A stretch of 64,000 bases of DNA from Nitrospira lenta (lineage in GTDB: Bacteria > Nitrospirota > Nitrospiria > Nitrospirales > Nitrospiraceae). Made by a program: the position numbers and the translations under genes. The DNA lies in assembly GCF_900403705.1 (NCBI RefSeq), contig NZ_OUNR01000012.1, positions 248,001 through 312,000 of the forward strand, in the 5' to 3' direction. Positions 6,351 through 34,212 of this stretch are shown one piece after another (the first letter of the stretch is position 1; each line of letters opens with the position of its first letter). Below the pieces are notes generated by a model. The model did no database searches and was not told where the DNA came from. It saw only the letters and a list, made by a program, of their open reading frames with translations.

Positions 6351-7484
6351 ATGTTTGGAGAGCATTCTAAGGGGGCCCAAGTATCTCGCGAAGCGCTGTA
6401 CGACCAAGTCTGGGCCACACCGATGACCAAGGTGGCCAAGGAGTATGGGATTTCAGACGTGGCGCTCGCGAAGATCTGCAAGAAACTGAATGTTCCCTAC
6501 CCAGGGCGCGGCTACTGGCGGAGAAAAGAGACGGGCAAAACTGTTAAGCAAACGGCCCTCCCTCCTAGCCAAGATCCCAGCAAACAGCAGGTAACGATCC
6601 ATCGAACCATTCGGGCTGAGATGACGTTTTCTGAGGACGTTGCTCAGAGGATCGCTGCTGAACAAGCGCCTGGACAGACCATCGAGGTGCCTGAACGCCT
6701 CGGCAAGACCCACCGGCTGATTAGCGGCCAACTCACCACCTGGCGATCTGCCTCTGTCGATGAGTATGGCGCCATTCAATCCGGCACGCTCCGGCAACTC
6801 AACATTCGGGTCAGTCCTCAAGCCCTCTCCCGTGCACTCAGAATCATGAATACGCTCTTCTGCGCATTGGAAACCCGCGGGTATCCAGTTGGCAACCAGG
6901 AGGGGTATAGGAAGACACTTGGGGTCCGAATCAATGATGAGCCTGTCGAGTTTGGTCTCGAAGAGAAATTTCAGCGGATTGAACTCCCGCAGGATCCGAA
7001 ACGTCGGTCGAGTCCTTGGAGCTATCCTCGACACGAATATCGATATGTGGCGACGGGTATCCTCACCCTGAAGATCAATGAATGGGTGGATGGGGTGCAA
7101 AAGTCTTGGAGTGATGGGAAGACTGCGCGGCTGGAAACTACCCTCAATAACTTTCTCGTCGGCCTGTTGAAGGTTGCTGAAGCTCTCAAAGCCAGACGTC
7201 TCAAACAAGAGGAAGAAGCACGACTTCGGCAGGAAGCTCAGCGGCGCCGTGAGGAAGAAGAGCAACGACAACAAGAAAAGCAACGTAGACGGCAGGCTCT
7301 GTTCAACGAAGCGGAGAGCTGGGCGAAAGCTCAACAACTTCGTACCTACCTCGCCGCGGTGAAAGAAGCAGTGGTTACGAAACATGGAACGATCCAACCG
7401 GGCAGCGAAGCAGACCAATGGTTCAGCTGGGCTTATCAGCAAGCAGACGCCCTTGATCCGCTCCGATCTCCAAAATCCACCTGA
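6351..7484 (+). CDS. Conserved HTH/coiled-coil protein of unknown function
   Basis: The 377-residue product starts MFGEHSKGAQ after a good AGGAGGG; an upstream in-frame ATG at 6270 has no such site. Residues 13-60 (SREALYDQVWATPMTKVAKEYGISDVALAKICKKLNVPYPGRGYW) are a helix-turn-helix-like module that I recognise from hypothetical proteins scattered in accessory regions. The middle is mixed alpha/beta. Residues 270-330 are a long charged coiled coil (EEEARLRQEAQRRREEEEQRQQ). It may bind DNA through the N-terminus, but no enzymatic motif is visible. It runs the same way as the WYL regulator 64 bases downstream and may share its transcript. Confidence 0.7.
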   Translation: MFGEHSKGAQVSREALYDQVWATPMTKVAKEYGISDVALAKICKKLNVPYPGRGYWRRKETGKTVKQTALPPSQDPSKQQVTIHRTIRAEMTFSEDVAQRIAAEQAPGQTIEVPERLGKTHRLISGQLTTWRSASVDEYGAIQSGTLRQLNIRVSPQALSRALRIMNTLFCALETRGYPVGNQEGYRKTLGVRINDEPVEFGLEEKFQRIELPQDPKRRSSPWSYPRHEYRYVATGILTLKINEWVDGVQKSWSDGKTARLETTLNNFLVGLLKVAEALKARRLKQEEEARLRQEAQRRREEEEQRQQEKQRRRQALFNEAESWAKAQQLRTYLAAVKEAVVTKHGTIQPGSEADQWFSWAYQQADALDPLRSPKST

Positions 7485-7548: not shown

Positions 7549-8532
7549 ATGCCACGAAATGATCAGGTCACCAGGCAATGGCATCTGTTGCAACGCCTGG
7601 GTGTTGCACGGAACGGACTAACTCTTGCCGAGTTGGTTGAGGCGATCCCTGCCGATTTGACGCGCCATCCTCGAACGGTCCGCCGTGATCTCGCCGCTCT
7701 CGAAGCCTCGCATTTTCCGCTCCTGATCGAGCGTGTCGATGGCGAAGTCCGCTGGCGTCTCCTGGACGGATTCAAAAACATTCCAGCCCTTCGTCTCTCA
7801 CCGACGGAATTGATGGCCCTGGCTTTCAGCCGCCGTCTGTTAAGCCCGCTCCAAGGCACCTTGATTCAGACTTCTTTAAACTCAGCGTTGACCAAGATTT
7901 CCGCGGCCATTCCGGCTGGAGCCACCGAGTATCTCCAACGCTTGGACCAATGGTTCTCCGTTGGTCTGGGGCCGCACAAGAACTACAGGCATCATCGGGA
8001 GACGATCGATATCCTGTCGCAGGCCATCGCTCATCGGCACACCGTCCAGATGCGGTATTTCTCCGCCGGTCGCAATGCGACTACCAGACGGGAAGTGGAC
8101 CCCTATCGCTTGCGCTATGTGGACGGCGGTCTTTATCTGATTGCCTATTGCCACTGGCGGAAAGACGTGCGGATGTTCGCGGTCGAGCGGATCAAAGCTC
8201 TCACCCCCACCGACCATCCCTATCAAATGCCGTTGCACTTCGATCTTGAGGCCTACGTAGAAGACGCGCTTGTCGTCATGCGGGGCGAGCGAATTACGGT
8301 CGAGCTGAAGTTCGACAAAGGCACCGCCGCCTGGGTAAAGGACCGGACCTGGCATCCCAGCCAGCAAGTGACGCCGCTCAAGACCGGTCAGCTCCTCATG
8401 ACGCTCCAAGTGGCCGACACCCGCGAGTTGCTTGGCTGGATCCTCAGCTTCGGGAGCGGCGTGCAGGTCCTCAAGCCCGAGCGGCTGCAGCAAGCCGTGA
8501 AAGACGAAGCGACGAAACTCCTCGCTCAATAG
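7549..8532 (+). CDS. WYL-domain transcriptional regulator
   Basis: The 327-residue protein has an N-terminal winged helix (residues 5-65, with HPRTVRRDLAALE as the recognition part) and a WYL domain (about 150-230). The WYL domain includes AIAHRHTVQMRYFSAGR, DPYRLRYVDGGLYLIAYCHWR and a C-terminal extension. WYL proteins sense nucleotides or nucleic acid ends and often repress defence operons; BrxR and CapW are examples. Two near-identical palindromes (8532-8548 and 8634-8650) sit directly after this gene and before the VWA gene, so it probably controls the downstream operon and perhaps BREX. GAAGGAG precedes the ATG. Confidence 0.88.
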   Translation: MPRNDQVTRQWHLLQRLGVARNGLTLAELVEAIPADLTRHPRTVRRDLAALEASHFPLLIERVDGEVRWRLLDGFKNIPALRLSPTELMALAFSRRLLSPLQGTLIQTSLNSALTKISAAIPAGATEYLQRLDQWFSVGLGPHKNYRHHRETIDILSQAIAHRHTVQMRYFSAGRNATTRREVDPYRLRYVDGGLYLIAYCHWRKDVRMFAVERIKALTPTDHPYQMPLHFDLEAYVEDALVVMRGERITVELKFDKGTAAWVKDRTWHPSQQVTPLKTGQLLMTLQVADTRELLGWILSFGSGVQVLKPERLQQAVKDEATKLLAQ

Positions 8533-8548
8533 TGACCTCGGATGTCAC
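8532..8548. promoter_or_regulatory. Candidate WYL-regulator operator, site 1
   Basis: GTGACCTCGGATGTCAC is a hyphenated palindrome with perfect GTGAC/GTCAC arms around 7 bases. Fourteen of its 17 positions match a second site 102 bases downstream. It overlaps the last base of the WYL gene stop codon and lies in the only sizeable gap before the VWA operon. Binding by the WYL protein is inferred from position. Confidence 0.5.
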
Positions 8549-8633
8549 CATTGCCTGACCGGCTGAAGGCCGTCGGCGTGCAAAACTCCTTGAAAACCAA
8601 GCTCAGAGCGTCAATCTACCTACGATCTGCGGA

Positions 8634-8650
8634 GTGACCTGCGCTGTCAC
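8634..8650. promoter_or_regulatory. Candidate WYL-regulator operator, site 2
   Basis: GTGACCTGCGCTGTCAC repeats the arms and the inner CT...T of site 1. Only the central four bases differ. It lies 55 bases before the VWA start codon, where a repressor could block transcription of the operon. Confidence 0.5.
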
Positions 8651-8704
8651 GCTCCTCGAATAGGATGGGGCTTCGCGCCACCTAATCAGAAGGAGGTTTC
8701 CACC

Positions 8705-9394
8705 ATGGACAAGCCGGTGCCCCAACAGCCGAATCACGCAGCCCAACCGCTCTACGTCACCCTCATTCTCGATGAAAGCGGCTCCATGCAATCGTGCAAA
8801 GGCGCGGCCCTCGCCGGGTTTAATCAGTATCTCGCCACCCTCAAGCGGGAACCGGTCGAGACGCGCTTCACCCTCACGCTTTTCAATGCCAGCAAGACCG
8901 ACGTGCGCTACCGGGCTGTGCCGGTGTCAGCCGTGCAGGACCTGGATGTGGAAACCTATCGCCCACAGGACGGTACGCCGCTCTACGACGCTATCGGGCA
9001 CACCTTGTCTCTGGCCAGACAGGAAGCGCCGGCTGAGGCCAAGAAACTCTGCGTCATTCTCACCGACGGGGAGGAGAATGCGTCGCAGGAATACACCAGG
9101 AAGCAGGTGTTCAACCTTATCAAGGGTTATGAGAAACAGGGCTGGACATTTCTCTATCTCGGCGCCGATCACGACGTCTGGGCCGCTGGCCGCGATCTCG
9201 GTATTGCGGGAGACGGACTGATCTCCTTCTGCCGCAGTACGGTCGATCACACCTTCGATCAACTGAGCGAGGCCACCGCCCGCTACCGCCGCGACGACGG
9301 GCAACCGGCAGCCGATGCGTTTAGGCCCAACGAGACGCCGCCCTCGCCGGCACCGTCGTCCGGTGACCAGGATCAGCCGTCGTGGCTGAACTGA
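8705..9394 (+). CDS. Cytoplasmic von Willebrand factor A (VWA) domain protein
   Basis: The 229-residue protein is almost entirely one VWA domain. The metal-binding MIDAS motif is D23-E-S25-G-S27 in LILDESGSM. A conserved threonine lies in PQDGTPLYDAI and an aspartate in ILTDGEEN. There is no signal peptide, so it works in the cytosol, probably as a metal-dependent protein-interaction module. The last 35 residues are a proline-rich tail. AGAAGGAGG stands 8 bases before the ATG. It heads a run of five closely spaced genes (VWA, two short exported proteins, phosphatase, another exported protein) behind the palindromic operators. Partner unknown. Confidence 0.8.
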   Translation: MDKPVPQQPNHAAQPLYVTLILDESGSMQSCKGAALAGFNQYLATLKREPVETRFTLTLFNASKTDVRYRAVPVSAVQDLDVETYRPQDGTPLYDAIGHTLSLARQEAPAEAKKLCVILTDGEENASQEYTRKQVFNLIKGYEKQGWTFLYLGADHDVWAAGRDLGIAGDGLISFCRSTVDHTFDQLSEATARYRRDDGQPAADAFRPNETPPSPAPSSGDQDQPSWLN

Positions 9395-9414
9395 CCGGGA
9401 GAAAGGAGATCGCC

Positions 9415-9846
9415 ATGAAGACCCTCGGCTCTCTGATCGTCGTCCTGCTCTGGATGCCGGCTTCGCTCCAGGCGGAAGACCTCGGGAACCTCAGTGCGAA
9501 CCCCTTTGACCAGGACTCCACGTCCAACCCCTTCGGGGCCGGCAGTCCTTTCAAGCCCGACGGGGTGAACAATCCCTTCAGCCCCTACGGCAGTCCCTTC
9601 AGCAACCGTTCGGTGACCAATCCTTTCGCCACAGATGCGCCCAAACTCTATGATCAGCAGGGAAATTATCGCGGCAAGCTGAGCGCCAATCCATTCGATG
9701 CAGACTCGACGAGCAACCAGTTCGGCCGCTACGGCTCGCCCTTTTCACCCGACTCGCTCAACAACCAATTTGGCGCGGGGAATCCGTTCAGGCCCGATTC
9801 GCCGAATAATCCCTATGGGCAAGGATGGAGAATCGAAGGCAAATAG
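9415..9846 (+). CDS. Short exported protein with NPF/GSPF repeats
   Basis: I start it at 9415 because GAAAGGAGAT lies just upstream and the product then opens with a clear signal peptide (MKTLGSLIVVLLWMPASLQA, cut before EDL). The mature part of about 123 residues has no cysteine. It is a low-complexity repeat: LSANPFD.DSTSN.FG..SPF.PD..NN.F occurs twice, and many shorter NPF, GSPF and NNPF units end in NNPYGQGW. Such repeats suggest an extended or surface-associated protein. It sits 20 bases after the VWA gene. No function is known to me. Confidence 0.7.
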   Translation: MKTLGSLIVVLLWMPASLQAEDLGNLSANPFDQDSTSNPFGAGSPFKPDGVNNPFSPYGSPFSNRSVTNPFATDAPKLYDQQGNYRGKLSANPFDADSTSNQFGRYGSPFSPDSLNNQFGAGNPFRPDSPNNPYGQGWRIEGK

Positions 9847-9869
9847 AAACAGACCACATCGGAGGTCCC

Positions 9870-10094
9870 ATGAAACACTTTATCTTTGGCATCCTCATCG
9901 GCAGCGCTATTACGGGTACGGCAGTAGGGGCAGGGAACTTGTACGACTCAAAAGGCAACGTGCAAGCGCCTCGTGGAAGCGTCCAGCAATACGATTACTT
10001 TCGCCAGCGGCAGCAGTGGTTGGATGTCGAAAATATGCGCAAGCAGATGGATCAACAGGAATTGAATCGCAAATCCGGTAAGCATCCCTGTTGA
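9870..10094 (+). CDS. Very short exported or membrane protein
   Basis: The 74-residue product begins after GGAGG with MKHFIFGILIGSAITGTAVGA, a signal peptide or single membrane anchor. Residues 22-74 are polar and charged with glutamine-rich helices (QQYDYFRQRQQW, MRKQMDQQELNRK). It lies between the NPF-repeat protein and the phosphatase in one transcription unit. Nothing in the sequence identifies a function. Confidence 0.6.
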   Translation: MKHFIFGILIGSAITGTAVGAGNLYDSKGNVQAPRGSVQQYDYFRQRQQWLDVENMRKQMDQQELNRKSGKHPC

Positions 10095-10148
10095 ACAATG
10101 AACCGGTGGCCGCGAGTCGAGACGGTTTTTTAGAAAGGACAATGTGCC

Positions 10149-10628
10149 ATGCTCATTACGGAATTGCCATTCGGGCAGCCTGGGCGGATTTTGCGAAGCC
10201 CGATGCCGTTTGGAAAATACGACCCGGAGGGCGTGATCTATGAAGCCTACCGGAATCATCACGTTTCAGTGATCGTGCTCCTGGCCGAAGACCGGGAGTG
10301 TCAGGCAAAGGCACACAGAGACCTGAGGGCGCTCTATATCCGGGACGGCTTCACGGTCGTACATCTTCCGATCGTGGACTTCGGCATTCCGGACGCGCAG
10401 GCGCTTCGCGTCGCTCTCGACGCCACTGTGAGCGAAGCGCAAGATGGTCGCCACCTGGCCATCCATTGCTCGGCCGGCATCGGAAGGACCGGACTCTTCG
10501 CCGCATGTTTGGCGAGAAGGCTGCTCAATCTGCCGGGTGAGTTGGCCATCGAGTGGGTCAGGCGACACATCGCGGGTGCGGTCGAGACGCCGCAGCAGAG
10601 GGACTTCGTCACAAGGATCAGCATCTAG
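10149..10628 (+). CDS. Dual-specificity/tyrosine-type protein phosphatase
   Basis: The P-loop signature HCSAGIGRTG puts the nucleophile at C107 and the phosphate-binding arginine at R113. The preceding PIVDFGIPD segment supplies the usual general-acid aspartate region near residue 75. The protein has 159 residues, no signal peptide and no extra domain. It probably removes phosphate from proteins or a small phosphorylated metabolite in the cytosol. It is the fourth gene of the VWA-headed operon, so a phospho-switch acting on a partner there is plausible but unproven. The start follows AGAAAGGACA. Confidence 0.78.
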   Translation: MLITELPFGQPGRILRSPMPFGKYDPEGVIYEAYRNHHVSVIVLLAEDRECQAKAHRDLRALYIRDGFTVVHLPIVDFGIPDAQALRVALDATVSEAQDGRHLAIHCSAGIGRTGLFAACLARRLLNLPGELAIEWVRRHIAGAVETPQQRDFVTRISI

Positions 10629-10734
10629 CTTGTGATGGCAGATCGGCGGGACTCTCGAAAGGGGAATGTTTTCTAAATCTGAAGAAGAGTATTGTGATGC
10701 GAATGGTGCGCAGGTCAATAAGAAGGAACCCGCT

Positions 10735-11088
10735 ATGTTCTCGATGAATATCAGCCTTCTGATACTTGTTCTCTTGCTGCCACTTGCCACAGTTCACGCG
10801 CAAGGCAATCGTTCCCGCGAGAGTTCTCCGCCGAAATCCCTGGATCCCATGAACCGCCCGATGGATGAATTGGGCGTAACCGGCAAGGACGACACTCTGT
10901 GCAGCGATCGCTGGTACTCGTGCACGACTTACGATCGTCAGCAGTTCGATCAGAAATATCCCGGCCGCCCGCTCAATGAACTGCTCCGCTACGGCGAACC
11001 GAACTGGCCCGATCGCGATGGTCAGCGAGGAGGCAGCGGCACATTTCACGATTCTTTGGACTACCGTGACAGGCAGGGCAAAGAGTGA
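10735..11088 (+). CDS. Short exported protein with one cysteine pair
   Basis: The start at 10735 (after AGAAGGAA) gives a signal peptide, MFSMNISLLILVLLLPLATVHA, and a mature domain of about 95 residues. It holds two cysteines in DTLCSDRWYSCTTY, likely a disulphide once exported, and a hydrophilic tail (NWPDRDGQRGG). An in-frame ATG at 10666 lacks a signal and a good ribosome-binding site. It is the last of the three small exported proteins in this operon. Unknown function. Confidence 0.6.
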   Translation: MFSMNISLLILVLLLPLATVHAQGNRSRESSPPKSLDPMNRPMDELGVTGKDDTLCSDRWYSCTTYDRQQFDQKYPGRPLNELLRYGEPNWPDRDGQRGGSGTFHDSLDYRDRQGKE

Positions 11089-11144
11089 CCGCTAAAACTA
11101 TCTCGACCTACCGTCTCGTGCCGGATCAGACAGAAGAGGGTTGA

Positions 11145-14100
11145 ATGAAACGGACTTCAGGACAACTGTTGTACTCGCCGAGCGATCTTGTTCGCTATCT
11201 GGCCTCGCCGTTCTCGTCCTGGATGGACCGGTACTGCCTGGAGAATCCCGGTGCGGTAACGCCGGATGAGGCCACGGAGGATGAACAACTGATCGCCCAA
11301 ACCGGCGAAGAGCACGAACGGGCGGTGCTTGATGACCTCAAGTCGTCGGATGCCGCCTTAATCGAGATTTCCAGGAACGATCCCGCCGGTGCCCGGGAGC
11401 AGACGTTGTCCGCCATCAGTGCGAAGACTCCCATTCTCTATCAGGCAGCGCTGGAAAGCGGGTCATTCGCCGGGTTTGCCGACTTTTTGATGCTGGATGA
11501 TTCCGGACGCTATCAGGTGTGGGACACGAAGCTGGCTCGCTCGCCCAAGCCCTATTATGCCGTTCAGCTCTGCTGCTATTCAGAAATGTTGGCCGATGCG
11601 ACCGGTGCCCCGATGCCGGAGAAATTCGGGATCATTCTTGGCACCAAGGAGCGGGTTGAGTTCCGGGTCGAAGACTTTATTCATTACTACCGCCACCTCA
11701 AGGCGAGTTTTCTTGCCATGCAGGACGGCTTCACCGGGAAAATGGCCGATTGCCCTGAGCCACTTCCACGGGCTGATCATGGCCGGTGGACATCCCATGC
11801 GGAGAAATTGTTCAACGGGCAGGACCACCTCGTCCTGGTTGCCGGAATCACGGTCGGCCAGATCAAGAAGCTCAAGCGGGCGGGGATCACCACGGTGGGG
11901 GACCTCGCCGCAGCGTCAGGCAAAACAGTTCCCAAACTCGACAAGGACTCAATGGAGAAGCTCGTCGCGCAGGCGCGCCTCCAACGCCAGACGCGCATCG
12001 ACCGGGTAGCCAAGCCCGAGGCTCCACCGCGCTTCGAGATCTTGCCTCAAGCCGGAACGAACGGCGAACCGGTAGGTCTTGCGGCATTGCCCCCCGATCA
12101 CCCGGCAGATGTCTTTTTCGACATGGAGGGATACCCCCTGGTTCCTGGTGGATTGGAATATTTGTTCGGGGTCTGCACGCGCAAAGGTCAGCCAGGGTCG
12201 TGGGACTTTACGGACTGGTGGGCACACGACCGTAATGAAGAGAAGTGCGCATTCGAAGGCTTTGTGGACTGGGTATTCAAGCGATGGAAGACGAATCCGG
12301 GCATGCACATCTACCATTACGCTGCTTATGAGGTTGGCGCAGTGAGGCGGTTGAGCACCTACCATGACACCCGCCAGGACGAGGTGGATGAGTTGCTCCG
12401 GAACGAGGTGTTTGTAGATCTCTATCAGGTTGTCCGCCACGGTCTACGTATCGGGGAGGACAGTTATTCTATCAAGTCAGTGGAGCGGCTCTACCGACCG
12501 AAGCGCACGACAGAGGTCGCTACCGCCGCTGACTCGATCGTGCAGTACGCCCGCTGGATCGAGAGCAGGCAGCCAGGAGATTGGAGCAAGAGCCCCATTC
12601 TAAAGGGTATCCGTGACTACAACGAGGACGACTGCAAATCCACGGCGGAGCTACTGCAATGGCTGAGGAAGGTCGCGGGTGAATACAAGATTGCTGCGGT
12701 CCATTCGGCTTCTGTATCAGCGCCAGCAACGCCACCGCAGCAGTTGCCGCCTGAGATCGTCGCTCGACTGGATACCGCGGCGAAGCTCCGTAAGGGGGAG
12801 GACGCGGTTTCGGTGGCGCTCGCTAACTTGATCGATTTTCATCGGCGGGAAGAAAAGCCCATGTGGTGGCGAATGTTCGACCGTGCGGCTGCCACTTCAG
12901 ACGTGCTCCGTGACGATCCTGCTTGTATCGATGGCGTGCAAGCCGTGGGATCCCCGATGCCCGACAAACAATCGCTGGTGCAAGCCTACCGATTCGATCC
13001 ATCGCAGGAGTGCAAACTTGCAGCCAGTGATAAGTCCAGAGTGATGTTCACGCACAACTTGGAGGCAAAGCTCACACTATCAGCGTTGGATATCTCTGCT
13101 GGTAATCTGGAACTCAAGATAGGCAAGAAGGGGCTGAACGAGAAGCTTGCAGGCACGTTCCCGTCGGGAGGGTCACTGCTTCCCGACGAATATGTCTCTG
13201 CGAAGACTATTCAGGATGCGCTGGCTGATGTGGCCACGCGACACTTGTCGAACCAGCTCCATCCCTCGGTGGCCGCACTCTTCAACCGTCAGCCACCCGC
13301 GATGTTGTTGAAAAAAGCCGATGAATCCACGACCCAGGCCGCCATCCGGGTTGCTGGTTCAATGTCCGGCGGGTGCCTGGTTATCCAAGGGCCTCCCGGT
13401 ACGGGCAAGACGTTTACCGCCTCGCAGGTCATTTTGTCCCTTCTCATTGCCGGAAAGAAGATCGGCGTCGCATCCAATAGTCATAAGGCAGTGGTGAATC
13501 TTCTCATGGCCTGCGGCGACGCAGCACGAGAAACCGGCAGGAGTTTGCAGGGAATCAAGGTTGGAGGGGAGGCGGAAGGCCCGTTGTTTTCTTCTAACCT
13601 GAGTCTCAAATACGTCAAAGATACAGGTGAGGCGCGTGGGGCATACACAGAAGGCATCGTGGGGGGAACGGCCTGGCTCTTCACTCGGCCCGAGTGGGAA
13701 GGTGTGCTCGACTTCCTGTTCATCGATGAAGCCGGACAGGTTTCTCTCGCCAATGCAGTCGCTATGGCGCGATGTGCCAAGAATCTTGTGCTCCTTGGCG
13801 ATCAAATGCAGCTCGAACAGCCTATTCAGGGCTCGCATCCCGGTGATGCCGGACTCTCTGTGCTGCAATTTGCCCTGAAGGATACCGTCGCCAGCCTGCC
13901 CGATGCGCCTCTGTTCCATGCGGTGGTGCCTCCGGAGTACGGCCTGTTCCTGGGCGAGTCCCGCCGGATGCACCCATCCGTCTGCCGATTCATCTCTGAA
14001 AGTAGCTACGAGAAACGACTGGTGTCCCATCCAGACTGTGCCAGGCAGAAGATCGTAGCCCCACTTGGCGCAACCGATCTCATCACGAGCGAAAACGGGA

Positions 14101-14558
14101 TCGTTTTCAGCGGGGTCGAGCATGATGGAAATATTCAGCAGAGCGACGAGGAAGTTGAACGGGTCAAGGCGGTTTACGATGAGCTCTGCGGGCGTCTCTA
14201 TACGGCCAAGGATGGCTCCACGAAGCCCTTGGCACTGGAAGACTTTCTCTTTATTGCGCCCTACAACGCTCAGGTGCGCGCCCTACAAGCCGCTCTTCCC
14301 CAAGGCGCCCGCGTCGGAAGTGTCGACAAGTTTCAAGGACAGGAGGCCTCGGTTTGCATCCTGTCCCTCTGCTCCAGCTACGGGGAATATGGTTCGCGGG
14401 GGCTGGCCTTCATTCTGGATCGCAACCGGGTGAATGTCGCCATCTCCCGTGCCCAATGTCTGGCAGTGGTAGTGGCCGACCCCCGGATTGCTCGCGCTAC
14501 TCCAGGTTCTCTGGATGAAATGATGTTACTCAATCTGTTTTGCAAAGTAGTCGACTAA
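11145..14558 (+). CDS. TM0106-family RecB-like nuclease fused to a UPF1/DNA2-like helicase
   Basis: The 1137-residue protein has three parts. Residues 60-150 hold a PD-(D/E)xK nuclease core: GFADF near 110, VWDTKLA near 125, and AVQLCCYSEML. Residues 310-500 hold an RNase H-like exonuclease domain (DVFFDMEGYP, HIYHYAAYEVGAV, YNEDDCKSTAEL). Residues 730-1137 hold an SF1 helicase with Walker A GPPGTGKT near 750, Walker B FIDEAGQ near 860, GESRRMHP, VDKFQGQE and NVAISRA. Such enzymes degrade or unwind DNA and are frequent in defence islands. It sits 56 bases after the small exported protein and 184 bases before brxA, all on the same strand. Confidence 0.87.
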   Translation: MKRTSGQLLYSPSDLVRYLASPFSSWMDRYCLENPGAVTPDEATEDEQLIAQTGEEHERAVLDDLKSSDAALIEISRNDPAGAREQTLSAISAKTPILYQAALESGSFAGFADFLMLDDSGRYQVWDTKLARSPKPYYAVQLCCYSEMLADATGAPMPEKFGIILGTKERVEFRVEDFIHYYRHLKASFLAMQDGFTGKMADCPEPLPRADHGRWTSHAEKLFNGQDHLVLVAGITVGQIKKLKRAGITTVGDLAAASGKTVPKLDKDSMEKLVAQARLQRQTRIDRVAKPEAPPRFEILPQAGTNGEPVGLAALPPDHPADVFFDMEGYPLVPGGLEYLFGVCTRKGQPGSWDFTDWWAHDRNEEKCAFEGFVDWVFKRWKTNPGMHIYHYAAYEVGAVRRLSTYHDTRQDEVDELLRNEVFVDLYQVVRHGLRIGEDSYSIKSVERLYRPKRTTEVATAADSIVQYARWIESRQPGDWSKSPILKGIRDYNEDDCKSTAELLQWLRKVAGEYKIAAVHSASVSAPATPPQQLPPEIVARLDTAAKLRKGEDAVSVALANLIDFHRREEKPMWWRMFDRAAATSDVLRDDPACIDGVQAVGSPMPDKQSLVQAYRFDPSQECKLAASDKSRVMFTHNLEAKLTLSALDISAGNLELKIGKKGLNEKLAGTFPSGGSLLPDEYVSAKTIQDALADVATRHLSNQLHPSVAALFNRQPPAMLLKKADESTTQAAIRVAGSMSGGCLVIQGPPGTGKTFTASQVILSLLIAGKKIGVASNSHKAVVNLLMACGDAARETGRSLQGIKVGGEAEGPLFSSNLSLKYVKDTGEARGAYTEGIVGGTAWLFTRPEWEGVLDFLFIDEAGQVSLANAVAMARCAKNLVLLGDQMQLEQPIQGSHPGDAGLSVLQFALKDTVASLPDAPLFHAVVPPEYGLFLGESRRMHPSVCRFISESSYEKRLVSHPDCARQKIVAPLGATDLITSENGIVFSGVEHDGNIQQSDEEVERVKAVYDELCGRLYTAKDGSTKPLALEDFLFIAPYNAQVRALQAALPQGARVGSVDKFQGQEASVCILSLCSSYGEYGSRGLAFILDRNRVNVAISRAQCLAVVVADPRIARATPGSLDEMMLLNLFCKVVD

Positions 14559-14742: not shown

Positions 14743-15357
14743 GTGCTCGTTATTACACAACCAGTTAGGCATTATGGCGCTGAGCTGACAGCTGGAGCAT
14801 TAAAAGTTCCAGAGAGCCGGATTATTGCTGATCTGCTTCTCCGAGGCGTCGCGCCAGAAGAATGGCATGAGACTCTTTATAAGCAGAATGCACTCCAAAC
14901 CCGTAATCTTGAGACAGCGAGGCGAATAGGGAGACTGATCCGTCAGCGGCTGGAGTTAATGAATGCCGACCTCTGGCGGCTCGTTCGTGATGGATCAAAG
15001 ACCGTGGCTACGCACGCGTGTCTCGCCGCCGCCATTAAGCACAGTGCCTTGCTCGGAGACTTCTTAGATTTGGTCGTCAGGGAACAATACCGCCTCTTCG
15101 CCTCAAAACTCTCGCCAACTCTCTGGGAAGAGTATCTGAATGACTGTCGAGGCCGTGACTCTATGATGCCGCTCTGGAACGACTCGACGAGGAGACGCTT
15201 GCGGTCGTCAGTGTACCAAGCACTTGCGCAGGCAGGATTTCTGGACAGCACACGAACGCTACGGCTTCAACCAGTCCATATTGCCTCCGAAGTGCTTGGC
15301 TATTTGCGGAACCAACGTGAAGAGTATGTGCTGCGTTGCATTCAGGTGTCTCCGTGA
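14743..15357 (+). CDS. brxA: BREX protein BrxA (DUF1819)
   Basis: The 204-residue protein matches BrxA in length and sequence character (LTAGALKVPESRIIADLLLRG, then DFLDLVVREQYRLF). BrxA is the first protein of type I BREX, a small helical protein reported to bind DNA; its exact role is unsettled. The start is a GTG with GGAG eight bases before it, preceded by the longest gap in this stretch, so the BREX promoter probably lies in 14559-14742. Its stop overlaps the start of brxB in GTGA. Confidence 0.88.
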   Translation: MLVITQPVRHYGAELTAGALKVPESRIIADLLLRGVAPEEWHETLYKQNALQTRNLETARRIGRLIRQRLELMNADLWRLVRDGSKTVATHACLAAAIKHSALLGDFLDLVVREQYRLFASKLSPTLWEEYLNDCRGRDSMMPLWNDSTRRRLRSSVYQALAQAGFLDSTRTLRLQPVHIASEVLGYLRNQREEYVLRCIQVSP

Positions 15358-15968
15358 GTGATCTGCTGACCGATCGGCTTAACAAGATTCTTCCGCGGAT
15401 CATCTCCGATGACTTCCTGAGCGGCAGCGGCATCGGGAACGAGATATCTTTCTACATCTTCGACTATCCGCCCGAAGAGGAACTCCGAGTACGAACTCAC
15501 CTTCGTTTCTTAGTAGACCACATTCCCAAACAAAAACCAGAGCTTCGTTTCACACACATCAACCTGTTCGATCTAGTGTTGGATCACCTCAAGCAACGGA
15601 AACTGCTTGAGAAGGCACTTCAGATACAACGGGAGAAGGGTGACGAAGCGCTCAAGGCGGCGTTGGCTGGCCCCCTCCATCCTGAGAAGCTAGCATCGAT
15701 CTTTTGTGAAGTGGCTAGGCCGGATCAGAACAAACTTGTCCTGGTGTCAGGTGTTGGAAGCGTGTATCCGCTGCTCCGAACCAGCGGCTTGCTCAGCAAT
15801 CTGCAGAATGTGATGGGACCCATTCCTCTCGTGCTCTTTTATCCAGGAAAGTACGATCAACTGACCCTCAGACTGTTTGGGAAGCTGAGCCTGTCCGCAC
15901 ACGTTGACGGTGTAGCAAAAAGCAAGAAGCCGGAACATTATTACCGCGCCTTCAGATTAGTGCCCTAA
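15354..15968 (+). CDS. brxB: BREX protein BrxB (DUF1788)
   Basis: The 204-residue product has the BrxB/DUF1788 signature: a beta-rich core with GNEISFYIFDYPPEEELRV and LVLVSGVGSVYPLLR...LL..L....GP.PLVLFYPG. I use the GTG at 15354 because it overlaps the brxA stop by 4 bases, the usual coupling in this operon; an upstream TTG is less likely. BrxB is required for BREX defence and is thought to belong to the multi-protein complex with BrxC and PglZ. Confidence 0.88.
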   Translation: MSDLLTDRLNKILPRIISDDFLSGSGIGNEISFYIFDYPPEEELRVRTHLRFLVDHIPKQKPELRFTHINLFDLVLDHLKQRKLLEKALQIQREKGDEALKAALAGPLHPEKLASIFCEVARPDQNKLVLVSGVGSVYPLLRTSGLLSNLQNVMGPIPLVLFYPGKYDQLTLRLFGKLSLSAHVDGVAKSKKPEHYYRAFRLVP

Positions 15969-15980
15969 CAGAGGCTGACT

Positions 15981-18900
15981 ATGAACATTCAGAATCTCTT
16001 CGAGCGAGACCTGTTTCGCTCCATCAATGGAGTCGTCAAGGCGGATCAGTTGGACGAATCGTCCGTCTGGCAGGAGTTGGACGAATTCGTTGTAACAAGA
16101 GAGCTTGATCAGCATCTCCGCCGCTTTTTCTCGACATATGGTGACGCGATCAAGCATCCCCAAGATCCCGATGTCGCAGGGAAGATTGGCGTGTGGGTGT
16201 CAGGCTTCTTCGGCTCCGGTAAATCACACTTTATTAAGGTTCTGTCCTACCTCTTGCAGAACAAGACCCATACGCATCAGGGACAGAGCAAGCGGGCGGT
16301 CGAGTTCTTCGAGAGCAAGATCAAAGATGCCATGTTGTTTGGTGACATCAAGCGAGCGGTCGCCTCGAATACCGATGTCATCCTGTTCAACATTGACAGC
16401 AAGGCCGACCACCGTATTGGGCGCGATGCCATTCTTGCCGTGTTCCTCAAGGTCTTGAACGAGATGCAAGGCTATTGCGGTGATCATCCTCAGATCGCAC
16501 ACCTGGAACGTCATCTGGAAGGGAGAGGCAAGCTCGCACAGTTCCACGACGCCTTTCGCAAGGCGACGGGTAGCGAGTGGACGGCAGACCGTGATGCATA
16601 CCATTTTCACCGGGACGAAATCGTAAAGGCGCTCGGCGAAACGCTCAAGATGAGCAAAGAGTCGGCGGAGAAGTGGGTCGATGGGGCGGAAGGCAGTTTT
16701 GCCTTAACCGTCGAAAACCTCTGTAAATGGGTCAAGGAGTATCTGGACTCGAAAGGGGAAGAGCATCGTCTTATTTTCCTGGTCGATGAAGTGGGGCAGT
16801 TCATCGGGACAGATTCCCACCTGATGCTCAACCTTCAGACCATCACAGAAGAGCTGGGAACCATCTGTAAGGGCCGGGCATGGGTGGTCGTCACTTCCCA
16901 AGAAGATATCGATGCTGTGCTGGGTGAAATGAAACAGAGCAAGGCCAACGACTTCTCGAAGATTCAGGGACGCTTCCGGACGCGCCTCTCGCTCTCAAGT
17001 GCCAACGTTGATGAAGTGATCCAGTCTCGCCTCCTGGCCAAACGCGAGGAGGTGAAAAGCGACCTGCAGGAAGTCTTCCGCAAAAAAGGAGACATCCTCA
17101 AGAATCAGCTCACGTTCACCAATTGCGGAATGACCTTCAAGAACATCAAGGATGGCGAGGATTTCGTCCAGAACTATCCATTCGTGCCGTATCAGTTTCA
17201 GCTCGTCCAAAAGATTTTTGAGGCGATCCGAAGAGCGGGGGCCACCGGTCTCCACCTATCCCGTGGCGAACGATCGATCCTCGATGCGTTTCAGTCGGCT
17301 GGCAAGCAGGTTGCCCTCGAAGAGGTCGGCATCCTGGTCCCGCTCTATCGGTTCTACCCTTCGATCGAAAGCTTTCTTGATACCGTCGTCAAGAAGACCA
17401 TCGATCAAGCCAAGGACAATCCGAGTCTGGAGCATCCGTTCGATATTAGTCTTCTGCAGGTATTGTTTCTCATTCGCTATGTCGAGGAGATCAAGGGGAA
17501 CGTCGATAACCTGGTGACCCTGTGCATCACCGAAATTGATGCCGACCGACTGGCGCTTCGTCGCAAGATCGAAGGGAGCCTCCAGCGTCTCGAAAAGGAA
17601 ACGCTCATTAATCGAAGTGGTGATGTGTATTTCTTCCTGACCAACGAAGAACGGGACATCAATCGGGAGATCAAGAATGTCGAACTCAGTAGTGGCGAGG
17701 AAGCCAAGCTCCTTGGAGAACTCATTTACAACGATGTCTTGAAAGAACAGAGAAAGCATCGCCATGCCGAGAACAAGATGGATTTTGCCTTCAATCGCTT
17801 CTGCGATTTGCTTCCGGTTGGAAATCGTCTCGACGGCGTATTGCAGCTCTCGGTTATTACGCCGCTGAATGATGAATACGGGTTGTACGACAATGCCAAA
17901 TGCCTTCTGGACAGCTCAACCGAAGGCGGCAGTATTCTGGTCCGCTTGGGCAATGACGAGACTCTGGGCCGCGAGCTCCGGACATACCTCCAGACCGAGA
18001 AGTATGTTCGCCATAAGAATGATGGCACACTTCCAGAGTCGGCGAAGCGTATTCTCCGCGACCTATCCGGAAACAACCAAGACCGCCGAGCCCGTCTAGT
18101 CACACTCTTAGGCGAGATGTTCGCCGGAGCCGACTTCTATGCTGCCGGCCAGCCCTTGAAGCTGAAAGCCTCCACGCCATTGGCCGCACTTGACGAATCA
18201 CTGGGGTATCTCGTCAAGAATACCTTCAATAAGATGGGGTACCTGAAGCGGCTGTCTCAGGAGCCATTAAAGGAAATTCAGGCCATCATTCGGAGTAACG
18301 ACATCGGTCAGCAGACGCTGATCATGGCAACCGAGGAGGGCAACAAGCAGGCGATAGAAGACCTACGCCATTATGTCGCCCTGATGTCAGGCAATAATAA
18401 GCAGATCGTGCTCCAGGACATGATCGACAAGCGGTACTCGCTACGTCCATATGGGTGGCCGGAAGACGAAGTGGTGATGCTGATTGCCCGTCTCGTGGTG
18501 CTGGGCGAAATCAGTCTCATGATGGATGGGACGCTAATCCCGCTCGATAAGGCCTACGACGCCATCACGACCCCTGCGAAACGTCGAAAGATCGTGATCC
18601 TCAAGCGGCAAACCACCGACCCAAAGGCTATTCAAGACGCCCGTACGCTGGGGAAAGAATTGTTTCATGAGATGGGGCCTGATGGCGAGGATGCTCTGTT
18701 TGCCTTTCTGCAAAACAAGCTCAAGAGTTGGCAGTCATCCTTGATGAGCTACAGGCCGTTGGCGGAGACCGGCGATTACCCCGGTAGAGACCACATCGCA
18801 GATGGCCTCCTAGCTGTAAAAAAGCTGCTCGCTTCCGATAACAGCTATAAGTTCATCCAGCAACTCAACGAACAGAAGAATGAACTTCTTGATTTCGCCG

Positions 18901-19562
18901 ATCACTTTACCAATCTCGAACAGTTCTACGAACACCAAAAGCCCACGTGGGAAAGGCTACGGAAGGCGTATGGCCGTTTTCAGCGAAATCGCCTTGAGCT
19001 TGAGAGGGATGCGCAGGCCGGAGTGGCGCTCAAACGGATGCAGCAAATCCTGAACGCATCGAGTCCTTATAGCCTGATCAAAGAGACCGAGGGGCTCATT
19101 GCCACAGTCAGTACCGTTAATAGCGCCCTCGTGGCTGCAGCTCGCCAGCAGGCTCTTGCCAAGATTGACGTGCATCTCGTCACAGTCACCAGGGATATTG
19201 AGGCAGCCAAGGGAGACGCAGGACTTCGCGTTGCCTGCATGAGGCCACTCGAAGAACTTAAGGGCGCAGTCCAGTCTGAAGAGAGTCTGGCTCACATCAC
19301 ACAAATAGAGACGGAGGCTCTGAAAGAATTCGATCTTGCAACCTATCGGATAGAAGAATCTGTTCGGAAAGCCACAGAGCAGCCCAAGGAAAAAGGAGAG
19401 CAGCCCAAGCCTATACTCAAAAAGAAACGGGTAGTGGAGCCAGCCAAGCTGGTCGCATCTCCCTATTTGGAAACGCAGGCGGATGTCGAAGCATTTCTTA
19501 AGACGCTGCGATCGGAGTTGGAGCAGGCACTCACTAAGGACGAACGCATCGAGATCCGCTGA
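15981..19562 (+). CDS. brxC: BREX P-loop ATPase BrxC
   Basis: The 1193-residue ATPase carries Walker A GFFGSGKS at residues 75-82 and Walker B LIFLVDEVGQFIG near 262-272, both typical of BrxC/PglY. The C-terminal half is long and helical with coiled-coil segments, and a lysine-rich linker (KEKGEQPKPILKKKR) precedes the last 50 residues. BrxC is essential for type I BREX and probably powers assembly or remodelling of the complex on DNA. It starts 12 bases after brxB. Confidence 0.9.
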   Translation: MNIQNLFERDLFRSINGVVKADQLDESSVWQELDEFVVTRELDQHLRRFFSTYGDAIKHPQDPDVAGKIGVWVSGFFGSGKSHFIKVLSYLLQNKTHTHQGQSKRAVEFFESKIKDAMLFGDIKRAVASNTDVILFNIDSKADHRIGRDAILAVFLKVLNEMQGYCGDHPQIAHLERHLEGRGKLAQFHDAFRKATGSEWTADRDAYHFHRDEIVKALGETLKMSKESAEKWVDGAEGSFALTVENLCKWVKEYLDSKGEEHRLIFLVDEVGQFIGTDSHLMLNLQTITEELGTICKGRAWVVVTSQEDIDAVLGEMKQSKANDFSKIQGRFRTRLSLSSANVDEVIQSRLLAKREEVKSDLQEVFRKKGDILKNQLTFTNCGMTFKNIKDGEDFVQNYPFVPYQFQLVQKIFEAIRRAGATGLHLSRGERSILDAFQSAGKQVALEEVGILVPLYRFYPSIESFLDTVVKKTIDQAKDNPSLEHPFDISLLQVLFLIRYVEEIKGNVDNLVTLCITEIDADRLALRRKIEGSLQRLEKETLINRSGDVYFFLTNEERDINREIKNVELSSGEEAKLLGELIYNDVLKEQRKHRHAENKMDFAFNRFCDLLPVGNRLDGVLQLSVITPLNDEYGLYDNAKCLLDSSTEGGSILVRLGNDETLGRELRTYLQTEKYVRHKNDGTLPESAKRILRDLSGNNQDRRARLVTLLGEMFAGADFYAAGQPLKLKASTPLAALDESLGYLVKNTFNKMGYLKRLSQEPLKEIQAIIRSNDIGQQTLIMATEEGNKQAIEDLRHYVALMSGNNKQIVLQDMIDKRYSLRPYGWPEDEVVMLIARLVVLGEISLMMDGTLIPLDKAYDAITTPAKRRKIVILKRQTTDPKAIQDARTLGKELFHEMGPDGEDALFAFLQNKLKSWQSSLMSYRPLAETGDYPGRDHIADGLLAVKKLLASDNSYKFIQQLNEQKNELLDFADHFTNLEQFYEHQKPTWERLRKAYGRFQRNRLELERDAQAGVALKRMQQILNASSPYSLIKETEGLIATVSTVNSALVAAARQQALAKIDVHLVTVTRDIEAAKGDAGLRVACMRPLEELKGAVQSEESLAHITQIETEALKEFDLATYRIEESVRKATEQPKEKGEQPKPILKKKRVVEPAKLVASPYLETQADVEAFLKTLRSELEQALTKDERIEIR

Positions 19563-19585
19563 GAAGAGAATATGAGATTGGCAAT

Positions 19586-22500
19586 ATGAACCGCACCAAG
19601 CTCAAGACCTACGCCCCGCAAGCGCGCCGGGATTTCATTCAGGCCGTGACAGACCGCGCTGCCTTCTATGGCCTGACTGATAAGAAGATCGAACCCATCA
19701 CCGAGAACGGCGATGTGGCCATCATCGGAGGCCGCGCTTTTCCTCGCGCTATTGCGAGCAAACGCAAGGCCTTGGAAGAACGGATTGCCGAATACGGCTT
19801 CTGGCAGACCATGGATGCGATTGCCTATACCTGGTTTAACCGCCTGGTTGCCATCCGGTACATGGAATTACATGGCTATCTTGACCACGGCTACCGGGTA
19901 CTGAGCCATCCCGACGCGTCGAAGTCGATCCCTGAGATTCTGGAACAAGCCGAGCATCTTGATCTGCCAGGGTTGGACAAGCACAAGGTTATTGAGCTGA
20001 AACTGGAAGGCAGCAAAGAAGCCGAGCTGTACCGGATGCTGCTGCTTGCTCAGTGCAACGCCCTGTATACGGCGATGCCGTTTCTCTTTGAGTGGATCGG
20101 CGACGAAACGGAACTCCTCCTGCCCGATAACCTGCTCCACACCGACTCGCTGATCCGAAAGCTTGTCACTGATATCGATGAGGAAGACTGGCAGGAGGTC
20201 GAGATCATCGGCTGGCTCTACCAGTTCTACATCTCTGAGCGCAAAGACGAAGTGATGGCCCGCAAGAGCGCCGTGCCAACGGAGGACATCCCTGCCGTTA
20301 CCCAGCTCTTCACCCCGCACTGGATCGTCCGCTACCTCGTTGAGAACTCCCTCGGCCGCCTCTGGCTGCTGAACCGCCCCGGCTCCCGGCTCCGTGAGCA
20401 CATGCCCTACTACATTGAGGGCGAAGCCGAGACCGACTTTCTGAAGATCACCAAGCCCGAGGACATCCGCCTACTGGATCCTGCCTGCGGAAGCGGGCAC
20501 ATGCTCACCTATGCCTTCGACCTGCTCTTCCGTATCTACGAGGAAGAAGGCTACGTACCCAGTGAGATCCCCGTGCTTATCCTGAAGCACAATGTCTACG
20601 GCCTGGAGATCTGCCCCCGCGCGGCGCAGCTCGCCGAGCTGGCCCTCGTCTTCAAGGCTCGCGCTAAAACGCACCGCTTCTTCCAACCCGGCACTCTTGT
20701 TCAGCCCCGCATTCTTGCCTTGCAAAACATTCACTTCGACGAAGGCGAACTCCGCGACTACATCGCAGCGCTCGACCTCGGCAATCTCTTCAATGAGCCC
20801 ATGCTGCGGCTTCTCCATCAATTCGAGGAGGCCACCACCTTTGGTTCGCTCATTCAGCCCTGCCTCGACGAACAAAACATCACCTTCGCCCGTTCTGCCA
20901 TCGAGGCTAAAGACCTCGGTGGACAACTCTTTCTCCGCGAGACTCACGGGAAAGTCCTTCGAGTCCTCGAACAGGCGGAGATGCTCTGCGAGCGGTATCA
21001 CGTCGTCGTCGCAAATCCACCGTATATGGGATGGAAGGGTTTGAATGAAGTCCTGAAGAAATTCGCTAAAGAAAACTTCGCTGATTATAGGGAAGACTTG
21101 TTTTCTATGTTCGTTGAACGATCTTTGGGCCTGAATTTAAATGGTGGGATTATTGGGCTTATGACGCCTTTTACTTGGATGTTTCTTGGATCATTCGAGA
21201 AGCTCCGTAATCGCCTCCTTGAATCGTGTGTAATTACAAGTCTCGTGCGTCCGGAGTTGCACGCTTTCTTTGACTCAGCGTTTGTCTCAATCTGCGCTTT
21301 CACTTTGAAGCGTGGATGCCAAATGGATCAGAAGGGGAGCTTTATTGATCTGTCCCCTTTTTACGGAGCAGACGAGCAACCCCCAAAAGCGCTCGAAGCA
21401 ATCCGAAACCCCGCCTGCGGATGGCTCTACAAAGCCGCCGCCGCAGACTTCAGAAGCATTCCTACTAGCCCAATCGCCTATTCTCTTTCTGCGAAGATTA
21501 GACATCTTTTCTCTGAACACCCAACTCTGGGAGACAGCTTCACAGCACGCCAGGGTCTCGCAACGACACACAACGCACGCTTCGTCCGGCTGTGGCATGA
21601 AGTTAACCTTTTGAGCATCGGCTTCAGCTTGAATTCACGCGCAGAAACAGAATCAGGTGAGTACCGTTGGTTCCCTTACAACAAAGGTGGTGGATTCAGA
21701 AAATGGTGGGGCAATCAGACCTTCGTCGTTAACTGGCAAAACAACGGAGAAGCGATCAAGAGGGCCATCGTAGATAAGTATACGTATCTCAAAGGAAATC
21801 CGAATTTTGTGGCTAAGAATCAAGAGTTCTACTTCCGGCCTTCCGTTTCCTTCTCAAAAATAGGTGTTGGCTTCCCCGCATTTCGATACTTCCCTGCCGG
21901 TTTCATATTCGATGTAGCCGGAAGCTCGATTTTCTCCTCGAAGAGGGCCGAAGAATTCCAGTTGCTGTCGTTCTGCAATACTAAAATCGCCCGAGCTGTG
22001 TTGGCTGCTCTCGCTCCAACATTGAATATTGAGATTCAGCAAATTAACAACCTTCCTATTGCACTGCGAGAAAGCTGGGAAAGGCTGGATGCAGTTGTCG
22101 AGATCCTGCTCAATGAAGCGCGGATGGACTGGAATAACTTCGAAACCTCATGGGATTTCCGCGACCTGCCGTTGCTGCGGGCAGGGACGAAAGGCGTGAC
22201 GCTGGCTGTGAGTTGGGAGGCGTGGCGCGACAACTGCGCCACCTCCATCCGTCGAATGCAGGAGCTGGAGACGGAGAACAACCGGCTATGGATTGACGCC
22301 TACGGCATGCAAGATGAGTTAACTCCTGAGGTGCCTGAGAGCGAAATCACCCTCGCCCGCGCTGACCAAAAGAAGGACGTCGCAGCCTTCCTTTCCTATG
22401 CCGTTGGCTGCATGATGGGCCGCTATTCGCTAGACAAGCCAGGCCTCATTCTCGCTAACGTGGGCGATTCCCTGGCCGAATATCTGGCGAAGGTCGGTCA

Positions 22501-23119
22501 GCCGTTCGACATGCTCACATTCGCTCCCGACGGGGACGGCATCATACCCGTGCTCGATGGCGAGTGGTTCGAGGACGATATCGCAGTCCGCACCGAAGAT
22601 TTTCTTCGGGGCACGTTCGGCGAGGCCACGCTAGAGGCTAATCTGCACTTCATCGAGGAATCGCTCGGCAAGAATCTGCGCAAATACTTTCTGGCCGATT
22701 TCTACAAGGACCACCTCCAGACCTACAAGAAGCGTCCGATCTATTGGCTCTTCTCCAGCGGCAAGGAGCGAGCGTTCCAATGCTTGGTCTATTTGCACCG
22801 GTACCAGGACGGCACTCTGGCCCGTATGCGCACGGAATATGTCATCCCTTTACAAGGCAAGCTGGCCGCTCGTATTGAACAACTGGCTTCTGACACCCAG
22901 AAGGCAGCTTCCACTTCCCAACGTAAGACACTGGAAAAGGAACGAGACAAGCTTCTGAAGCACCAAACTGAACTCCGGGTATTTGACGAGAAGCTGCGGC
23001 ACTATGCCGATCAGCGGATCACGTTGGATCTCGACGACGGGGTGAAGGTCAACTACGGGAAGTTCGGCGATCTCCTCGCCGAGGTCAAAGCTGTGGCTGG
23101 CGGAACGGACGAGGATTGA
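19586..23119 (+). CDS. pglX: BREX adenine-specific DNA methyltransferase PglX
   Basis: PglX transfers methyl groups from S-adenosylmethionine to adenine in the BREX site and marks host DNA as self. The 1177-residue protein shows motif I DPACGSGHML near residue 297 and catalytic motif IV NPPY near 477. Long N- and C-terminal regions are expected to read the site, and the C-terminus ends in a coiled coil. The reading frame is intact with no homopolymer tract suggesting phase variation. Codons 500-840 are visibly more AT-rich than the rest, matching the target-recognition part that often recombines between strains; that is inference. The stop is coupled to pglZ by TGATG. Confidence 0.92.
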   Translation: MNRTKLKTYAPQARRDFIQAVTDRAAFYGLTDKKIEPITENGDVAIIGGRAFPRAIASKRKALEERIAEYGFWQTMDAIAYTWFNRLVAIRYMELHGYLDHGYRVLSHPDASKSIPEILEQAEHLDLPGLDKHKVIELKLEGSKEAELYRMLLLAQCNALYTAMPFLFEWIGDETELLLPDNLLHTDSLIRKLVTDIDEEDWQEVEIIGWLYQFYISERKDEVMARKSAVPTEDIPAVTQLFTPHWIVRYLVENSLGRLWLLNRPGSRLREHMPYYIEGEAETDFLKITKPEDIRLLDPACGSGHMLTYAFDLLFRIYEEEGYVPSEIPVLILKHNVYGLEICPRAAQLAELALVFKARAKTHRFFQPGTLVQPRILALQNIHFDEGELRDYIAALDLGNLFNEPMLRLLHQFEEATTFGSLIQPCLDEQNITFARSAIEAKDLGGQLFLRETHGKVLRVLEQAEMLCERYHVVVANPPYMGWKGLNEVLKKFAKENFADYREDLFSMFVERSLGLNLNGGIIGLMTPFTWMFLGSFEKLRNRLLESCVITSLVRPELHAFFDSAFVSICAFTLKRGCQMDQKGSFIDLSPFYGADEQPPKALEAIRNPACGWLYKAAAADFRSIPTSPIAYSLSAKIRHLFSEHPTLGDSFTARQGLATTHNARFVRLWHEVNLLSIGFSLNSRAETESGEYRWFPYNKGGGFRKWWGNQTFVVNWQNNGEAIKRAIVDKYTYLKGNPNFVAKNQEFYFRPSVSFSKIGVGFPAFRYFPAGFIFDVAGSSIFSSKRAEEFQLLSFCNTKIARAVLAALAPTLNIEIQQINNLPIALRESWERLDAVVEILLNEARMDWNNFETSWDFRDLPLLRAGTKGVTLAVSWEAWRDNCATSIRRMQELETENNRLWIDAYGMQDELTPEVPESEITLARADQKKDVAAFLSYAVGCMMGRYSLDKPGLILANVGDSLAEYLAKVGQPFDMLTFAPDGDGIIPVLDGEWFEDDIAVRTEDFLRGTFGEATLEANLHFIEESLGKNLRKYFLADFYKDHLQTYKKRPIYWLFSSGKERAFQCLVYLHRYQDGTLARMRTEYVIPLQGKLAARIEQLASDTQKAASTSQRKTLEKERDKLLKHQTELRVFDEKLRHYADQRITLDLDDGVKVNYGKFGDLLAEVKAVAGGTDED

Positions 23120-32531: not shown

Positions 32532-32551
32532 CGTATTTTTTGATCTTATGT

Positions 32552-32567
32552 ATCAATATTTTTTGAT
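32552..32567. promoter_or_regulatory. Second ArsR operator, upstream of acr3
   Basis: ATCAATATTTTTTGAT keeps the ATCAA-N6-TTGAT half-sites of the first operator. It lies in the 57-base gap between arsR and the acr3 start, so ArsR may control the transporter from an internal promoter as well. Confidence 0.6.
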
Positions 32568-32588
32568 GCTATGAAGGGTGTTACGCGG

Positions 32589-33701: not shown

Positions 33702-33739
33702 ATATCGTGGCGTCGGCTGCACGTCGAGAGGAGAAGACT

Positions 33740-34207: not shown

Positions 34208-34212
34208 ATCTC

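Follow-up and report, generated by a model that had tools for sequence, protein, structure and literature searches.

What are the five closely spaced genes that stand ahead of a nuclease-helicase gene and a BREX operon in Nitrospira lenta, and do they form a defence module in their own right? An earlier reading made from the sequence alone (hereafter, the sequence-only reading) had proposed them as a discrete new module. Comparison of the window, the 64-kb stretch of DNA analysed here, with 146 related genomes points to another answer: the region is very probably the shared leader of defence operons controlled by a WYL-type regulator, whose gene lies just upstream. The genes concerned are the following.

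7549..8532, forward strand: WYL-WCX transcriptional regulator, DriD/PafBC-like (Pfam WYL, 7.5e-23; WCX, 4.3e-19)
8705..9394, forward strand: VWA protein (Pfam VWA PF00092, 1.2e-5), MIDAS motif DESGS intact, without a signal peptide
9415..9846, forward strand: NPF, an Asn-Pro-Phe/Gly-Ser-Pro-Phe repeat protein, predicted to be exported (signal peptide by eye)
9870..10094, forward strand: S74, a small protein of 74 aa with an LYDSKGN motif, predicted to be exported (hydrophobic N-terminus by eye)
10149..10628, forward strand: DSP, a dual-specificity/tyrosine phosphatase (PF22785, 2.4e-12), HCX5R present (HCSAGIGRT)
10735..11088, forward strand: S3, a small protein with two cysteines, predicted to be exported (signal peptide by eye)
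11145..14558, forward strand: TM0106-family RecB-like nuclease-helicase (TIGR03491, 1.9e-60; PADLOC MkoA, 9.5e-36)
14743..27787, forward strand: BREX operon of six genes (BrxA, 5e-71; BrxB, 5e-60; BrxC; genes in the PglX and PglZ positions; BrxL)

The sequence-only reading described this arrangement correctly. All five open reading frames lie on the forward strand at the positions that it gave, with the MIDAS and CX5R motifs intact; they are tightly spaced, with consecutive gaps of 20, 23, 54, and 106 bp; and the nuclease-helicase and BREX genes that it named as neighbors are present. The order is regulator, five genes, TM0106 gene (the first large gene 3′ of the leader), and BREX. NPF, S74, and S3 have no Pfam match above the cut-off. 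By eye, the predicted signal peptides of NPF (MKTLGSLIVVLLWMPASLQA, followed by EDLG) and S3 (MFSMNISLLILVLLLPLATVHA, followed by QG) are of textbook type, and an alternative in-frame start for S3 is possible upstream, at 10666. DSP also matches the S. solfataricus phosphatase PTP (2i6i, 3.9e-10). Upstream of the WYL gene, a 376-aa protein (6354–7484) has weak HTH similarity only and no relative in any locus compared. Shortly 3′ of BREX lies a 461-aa HD-type dGTPase-like gene (28321–29706, by eye), possibly a further defence gene, and beyond the island there is an apparent arsenic resistance cluster (32205–34668; ArsR-like, Acr3-like, and ArsC-like, by eye).

Co-occurrence, the test set beforehand for a discrete five-gene module, went against it: a fixed five-gene system is ruled out, as the complete set is found in no other of the 146 genomes. 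Counting the genome of the window itself, relatives of NPF occur in 41 of these genomes, of S74 in 13, of VWA in 10, and of S3 in 4, and close relatives of DSP (at least 46% identity) in 6. The five genes recur in varying combinations, of which the best are WYL-VWA-S74-S3 in genome G002, where a 76% identical S3 relative lies beside VWA and S74, and WYL-NPF-S74-HD-NFGAH-DSP in G078; others are WYL-VWA-NPF (G051, G303) and VWA-NPF-S74 (G056). We found no homology to an envelope-stress operon. The part of the proposal that stands is that the genes are tied to defence and match no described system; they are not a system of their own. The sequence-only reading also set the 5′ boundary too far downstream, overlooking the WYL gene and the role of the region as a shared leader.

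The tie to defence extends to many systems. Copies of VWA and NPF, and of NPV, a further exported repeat protein, adjoin defence operons of many unrelated types, and many of these copies have a conserved operator pair. Behind the leader we found BREX, CRISPR types I-B, I-C, I-E, and I-G, restriction-modification (R-M) types I and III, Zorya, Hma/DISARM-like genes, and PD-(D/E)XK + UvrD pairs. For instance, a WYL-VWA-NPF leader is followed by type I-E CRISPR-Cas in G051; WYL-VWA and then NPV precede type I-G CRISPR in G052 and G003; VWA precedes type I R-M in G079; a DrmD-like helicase and a methylase follow VWA-NPF in G010; and VWA-NPF-S74 precedes a PD-(D/E)XK + UvrD pair in G056. In three loci from other genera of the family (L136, L140, L142), NPF lies directly before the same TM0106 gene, at 70–74% identity. 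Genome G057 carries WYL-NPF-S74-nuclease-UvrD before BREX, with another NPF at the BREX 3′ end. Its BREX genes (C2:119334-132384, L108/L109) are 92–98% identical to those of the window, apart from the gene in the PglX position (72%), a divergence that suggests a changed methylation specificity. Since CRISPR, R-M, and Zorya operons carry the same leader genes in front, we rule out a BREX-specific accessory set.

This association is stronger than expected from the genomic background. For each locus we took the closest ORF of ≥250 aa on the same strand, excluding cassette genes and accepting PADLOC matches at E ≤1e-5. It was a defence gene in 30 of 40 NPF/VWA loci, whereas 20 loci picked at random in the same genus or family gave one (Fisher 1.5e-7; 1.2e-5 when five weaker matches are dropped), in a comparison where the 40 loci share a family and are partly a hotspot, and control ORFs are shorter on average. 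The 30 matches leave out a TnpB in L144, and the sample leaves out L029, L031, L145, and L146, which were not scanned, and L138, which has no qualifying ORF. Two further observations concern the variety of these loci. An unrecognized leader set of NPF-S74 with HD-hydrolase-like and N-formylglutamate amidohydrolase-like genes precedes a cytosine methylase in L012/L069 (also L097). Four contigs from three or four Nitrospira genomes represent one chromosomal hotspot (L082, L084, L086, L089), where different defence systems lie beside a 3′-type NPF and are followed by the same flanking genes.

The element common to the 5′ loci lies between the regulator and the first leader gene.

8532..8548, forward strand: predicted operator O1, GTGACCTCGGATGTCAC, its first base being the last of the WYL stop codon
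8634..8650, forward strand: predicted operator O2, GTGACCTGCGCTGTCAC, 102 bp 3′ of O1 and at the expected −35 position
8661..8666, forward strand: predicted −10 element TAGGAT, 10 nt after O2, that is, starting at +11

The palindromic operators reported by the sequence-only reading are real: O1 and O2 are 17-bp palindromes and the only two GTGAC-N7-GTCAC sites in the 64 kb. O1 occupies the same place in related loci, and the two sites are 102–104 bp apart in 11 of 14 two-site loci. With loci aligned on O2, the motif TANNNT starts 11 nt past it in 14 of 19, compared with 0–2 at other offsets; O2 would therefore span about −39 to −23, centered on the −35 hexamer. A scan detected no consensus sigma-70 promoter at O2, as expected where the −35 is absent. 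A weight matrix derived from the leader operators scored at least 19 at 26 sites across 1.095 Mb of loci, some of these sites having been used to train it; each lies within a leader region or immediately behind one, and 160 kb of control loci had none. Between leader and defence genes, scanning revealed no excess of terminators or consensus promoters. A point against WYL control is that several loci keep the operators without an adjacent intact WYL gene (L024, L028, L076–L079; a WYL remnant persists in L136).

The operator can also be used to find defence genes. Searching the 146 genomes with the pattern TGACCYYVGATGTCAC, and with no cassette gene, returned 43 matches vs 1 for the reversed pattern. 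Of the 43, 13 lie in previously known loci, each of which has cassette genes; another was left out because its sequence was not retrieved, and we examined the other 29. WYL and/or NPV genes lie beside the operator at 18 of these 29 sites. Where downstream genes were scanned with PADLOC, 10 of 10 were defence genes (Cas3g, Cas3c, Cas3e, Cas8b, HsdM), including four at sites where no WYL or NPV gene is adjacent; seven of the 29 sites have neither such an adjacent gene nor a scanned defence gene. A partner operator lies about 100 bp away in eight of these independent loci, and TANNNT occurs at the same offset in 7 of 29 (0–1 elsewhere), a weaker signal than the 14 of 19 in leader loci.

The sequences thus establish a WYL-WCX gene and, after it, a pair of conserved operators and a −10 box whose geometry is fixed, with NPF or the distinct family NPV among the first genes past the promoter, and VWA, S74, S3, and the phosphatase as optional members. 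The explanation that we favor, and consider probable as a whole, is a WYL-switched leader that would join an envelope arm to intracellular immunity. A WYL activator of the DriD type would sense single-stranded DNA (ssDNA) or another signal of phage or DNA damage, bind O1 and O2, and recruit RNA polymerase to a promoter without a −35. Leader and defence genes, which share a strand and are separated by short gaps, would be switched on as one transcript. With less certainty, we infer that the exported proteins act in the envelope against further phage entry, in a superinfection-exclusion-like manner, and surface and intracellular immunity would come on together. VWA and the phosphatase would be intracellular accessories.

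The WYL protein is colinear over residues 3–318 with PDB chains 9pfq (2.9e-13) and 8tp8 (3.5e-13; phmmer), which are labeled only ‘WYL domain-containing’ and ‘DeoR-family’ in the match table and which we take to be DriD; its N-terminal HTH is seen only through this colinearity. No chain named BrxR was among its PDB matches. In Caulobacter, DriD is a WYL activator switched on by ssDNA, and at its promoters the ssDNA-bound protein covers a poor −35 at a fixed distance to the −10 (PMC12340889). Because O2 likewise replaces the −35 and the −10 offset is fixed, we favor DriD-like activation, and by this analogy the protein on balance would activate rather than repress. Against this, BrxR and CapW, which are better known among the WYL proteins linked to defence, repress by binding palindromes (PMC9122601, PMC9122589, PMC9122588); paired operators at a fixed spacing would also suit looping. 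The window protein could then be a BrxR/CapW-type repressor that holds O1 and O2, looping over 102 bp, until a phage signal arrives, with the rest of our explanation unchanged. We consider this unlikely: its closest solved full-length relatives are 9pfq and 8tp8 rather than any BrxR-named chain, and O2 stands in for the −35 with the −10 at a fixed offset, as with the DriD activator, whereas CapW sites overlap the −10 and repress (PMC9122588).

The exported proteins raise a separate question, namely whether they contribute to immunity at all. The NPF repeats are far above chance. NPF relatives share 42–87% identity (phage homologues 42–58%), and a Ka/Ks of ∼0.12 in both 5′-end and 3′-end copies, with Ks often >1, indicates that the protein is under purifying selection. 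A branch (92/81) separates all 13 NPFs in the 5′ position from the 3′-end copies. The tree is independent of defence type; neighboring leaves lead CRISPR I-E, type I R-M, PD-(D/E)XK-UvrD, and BREX, so the leader appears to have been kept while the defence system was swapped. An AlphaFold2 model from 16 sequences has a mean pLDDT of 91.8, rising to ∼97 across most of the mature protein, which begins and ends in strands and has two further short ones centrally, about an LYDQQGNYRG motif. Foldseek detected no convincing fold relative in PDB or BFVD (the VIA list in this comparison is one chain only); the modeled fold is possibly new, a lack of matches not being proof of novelty. We disbelieve a match to the phycobilisome linker 5y6p (E 0.005), which is NP-rich and of low complexity, and rejected S74 as an NPF relative, the two sharing only a 13-residue LYD..GN match (E 0.05).

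NPF is not confined to leaders. IMG/VR phage contigs carry relatives as single genes, whose neighbors encode an endolysin, a terminase, or a virion transglycosylase; NPF adjoins virion or lysis genes in L111, L113, and L117, and in the first two it runs opposite to the flanking genes. We found none in phage GenBank records, and two matches in plasmids, both from Cupriavidus (35%). NPF also lies at the 3′ end of defence operons without an operator (L072, L073, L080, L084) and outside defence loci in Alphaproteobacteria (L017–L019), and therefore its role would be independent of the regulator. Several truncated copies lie within a few kb in L021 and in L099, which suggests frequent recombination there. 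NPV (GFDERYERDYNIFNPVNKY...) is a second exported Asn-Pro-repeat family (L031, L033, L087, L101, L211–L229). In many CRISPR-Cas loci its gene comes first past the operator, and in L068 it follows a type I R-M operon opened by NPF. For the two families hhalign gives 95% and an E-value of 2.5e-8, and they may be homologous, but both are NP-rich repeats. The open-access literature yielded no published link of exported repeat proteins to defence islands.

Export, phage carriage, and company weakly suggest an envelope function for these proteins, and that they exclude phage there is a possibility that we hold with some doubt. More speculatively, NPF may belong to a generic exported immunity arm: an Asn-Pro-repeat protein, possibly of new fold and also used by phages, made among the first products of a damage-activated promoter and acting in the envelope with whichever intracellular system lies behind it. 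The small exported genes, above all NPF, could instead be passengers or recombination landmarks of defence islands with no immune role. NPF stands at both island ends in G057 and recurs at one hotspot with different systems (L082, L084, L086, L089), and the many truncated copies would fit a passenger or a recombination-prone gene. Such a gene would hardly show a Ka/Ks of ∼0.12 with a confident fold, homologues retained on phages, a leader position behind a conserved promoter, and replacement in the same place by NPV, and we judge this reading distinctly unlikely.

VWA and the phosphatase could also be a phospho-signaling pair that uses the exported peptides to detect an attack on the envelope and adjusts the nuclease-helicase or BREX. 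In favor of this, their motifs are intact, their genes are tightly spaced, and L151 and L152 have DSP relatives (46–48%) behind HsdR-like or DUF262 genes. Against it, no other genome examined has the two in one cassette, VWA frequently has no phosphatase after it (L022, L024, L028, L031, L033, L136), NPF and S74 occur without VWA (L069, L071), and no kinase or membrane sensor is encoded; we consider this reading very improbable. A vWA/kinase/phosphatase triad of the TerY-P type is ruled out, with no protein kinase among the genes of 7549–14558 and a phosphatase of the DSP/PTP rather than PP2C type. Both proteins have phage relatives (for VWA, phrog_7371, 1e-42).

A WYL-switched leader would have consequences beyond this locus. 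One operator sequence and promoter layout predict defence operons across Nitrospira and related bacteria, and searches with them can reveal operons not yet known. The layout suggests that CRISPR-Cas, R-M, BREX, and Zorya are under one switch of the DNA-damage type in ecologically important nitrifiers, and the shared front end suggests a cell-surface arm switched on together with intracellular immunity. It also raises the question of why intracellular immune operons so often have, at one end or the other, a gene for a small exported protein that is found on phages as well, which to our knowledge has not been asked before.

Several known systems resemble parts of this arrangement. Superinfection-exclusion morons are small exported single genes carried on phages near virion or lysis genes; NPF is likewise a phage-carried single gene, its export predicted by eye from the signal peptide, but it has no sequence or fold link to known exclusion proteins. 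As with BREX accessory genes (PMC12839542), the upstream genes are co-directional with BrxA, but here they also precede CRISPR, R-M, and Zorya and are not BREX-specific; the text of that BREX survey mentions neither TM0106 nor Nitrospira, and its vWA mentions concern MoxR-vWA systems. CapW and the kinase-substrate pair CapK/CapS are, like the WYL gene, portable regulators encoded 5′ of CBASS or diverse immune operons (PMC9122588, PMC13373217), but neither is described with exported proteins, and CapW has its operator on the −10 and its gene on the opposite strand (PMC9122588). BrxR, a WYL protein that regulates BREX and further defence islands (PMC9122601, PMC9122589), shares with the window protein the WYL and WCX domains, a gene placed before diverse defence systems, and palindromic operators. 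In the BrxR/CapW family, however, the operator lies 5′ of the regulator gene or on the −10, and in Acinetobacter the BrxR site lies across a predicted promoter whose boxes are canonical (PMC9122589), whereas both sites here lie at or beyond the 3′ end of the regulator gene (at its stop codon and over the −35) and are followed by a leader encoding exported proteins; the closest solved relatives, moreover, are the DriD/PafBC chains. DriD itself matches in its HTH-WYL-WCX layout, in similarity that is colinear over the full length, and in a site centered on a degenerate −35 at a constant distance from the −10. Its described targets are the DNA-damage genes didA, bapE, recJ, and dnaG (PMC12340889), whereas the window regulator precedes a defence operon, where a response to ssDNA would be by analogy. 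Regulators placed before immune operons are thus a known theme; what is new here is that unrelated defence operons have in common a portable leader, controlled by WYL and encoding exported repeat proteins, the exported component itself being possibly new.
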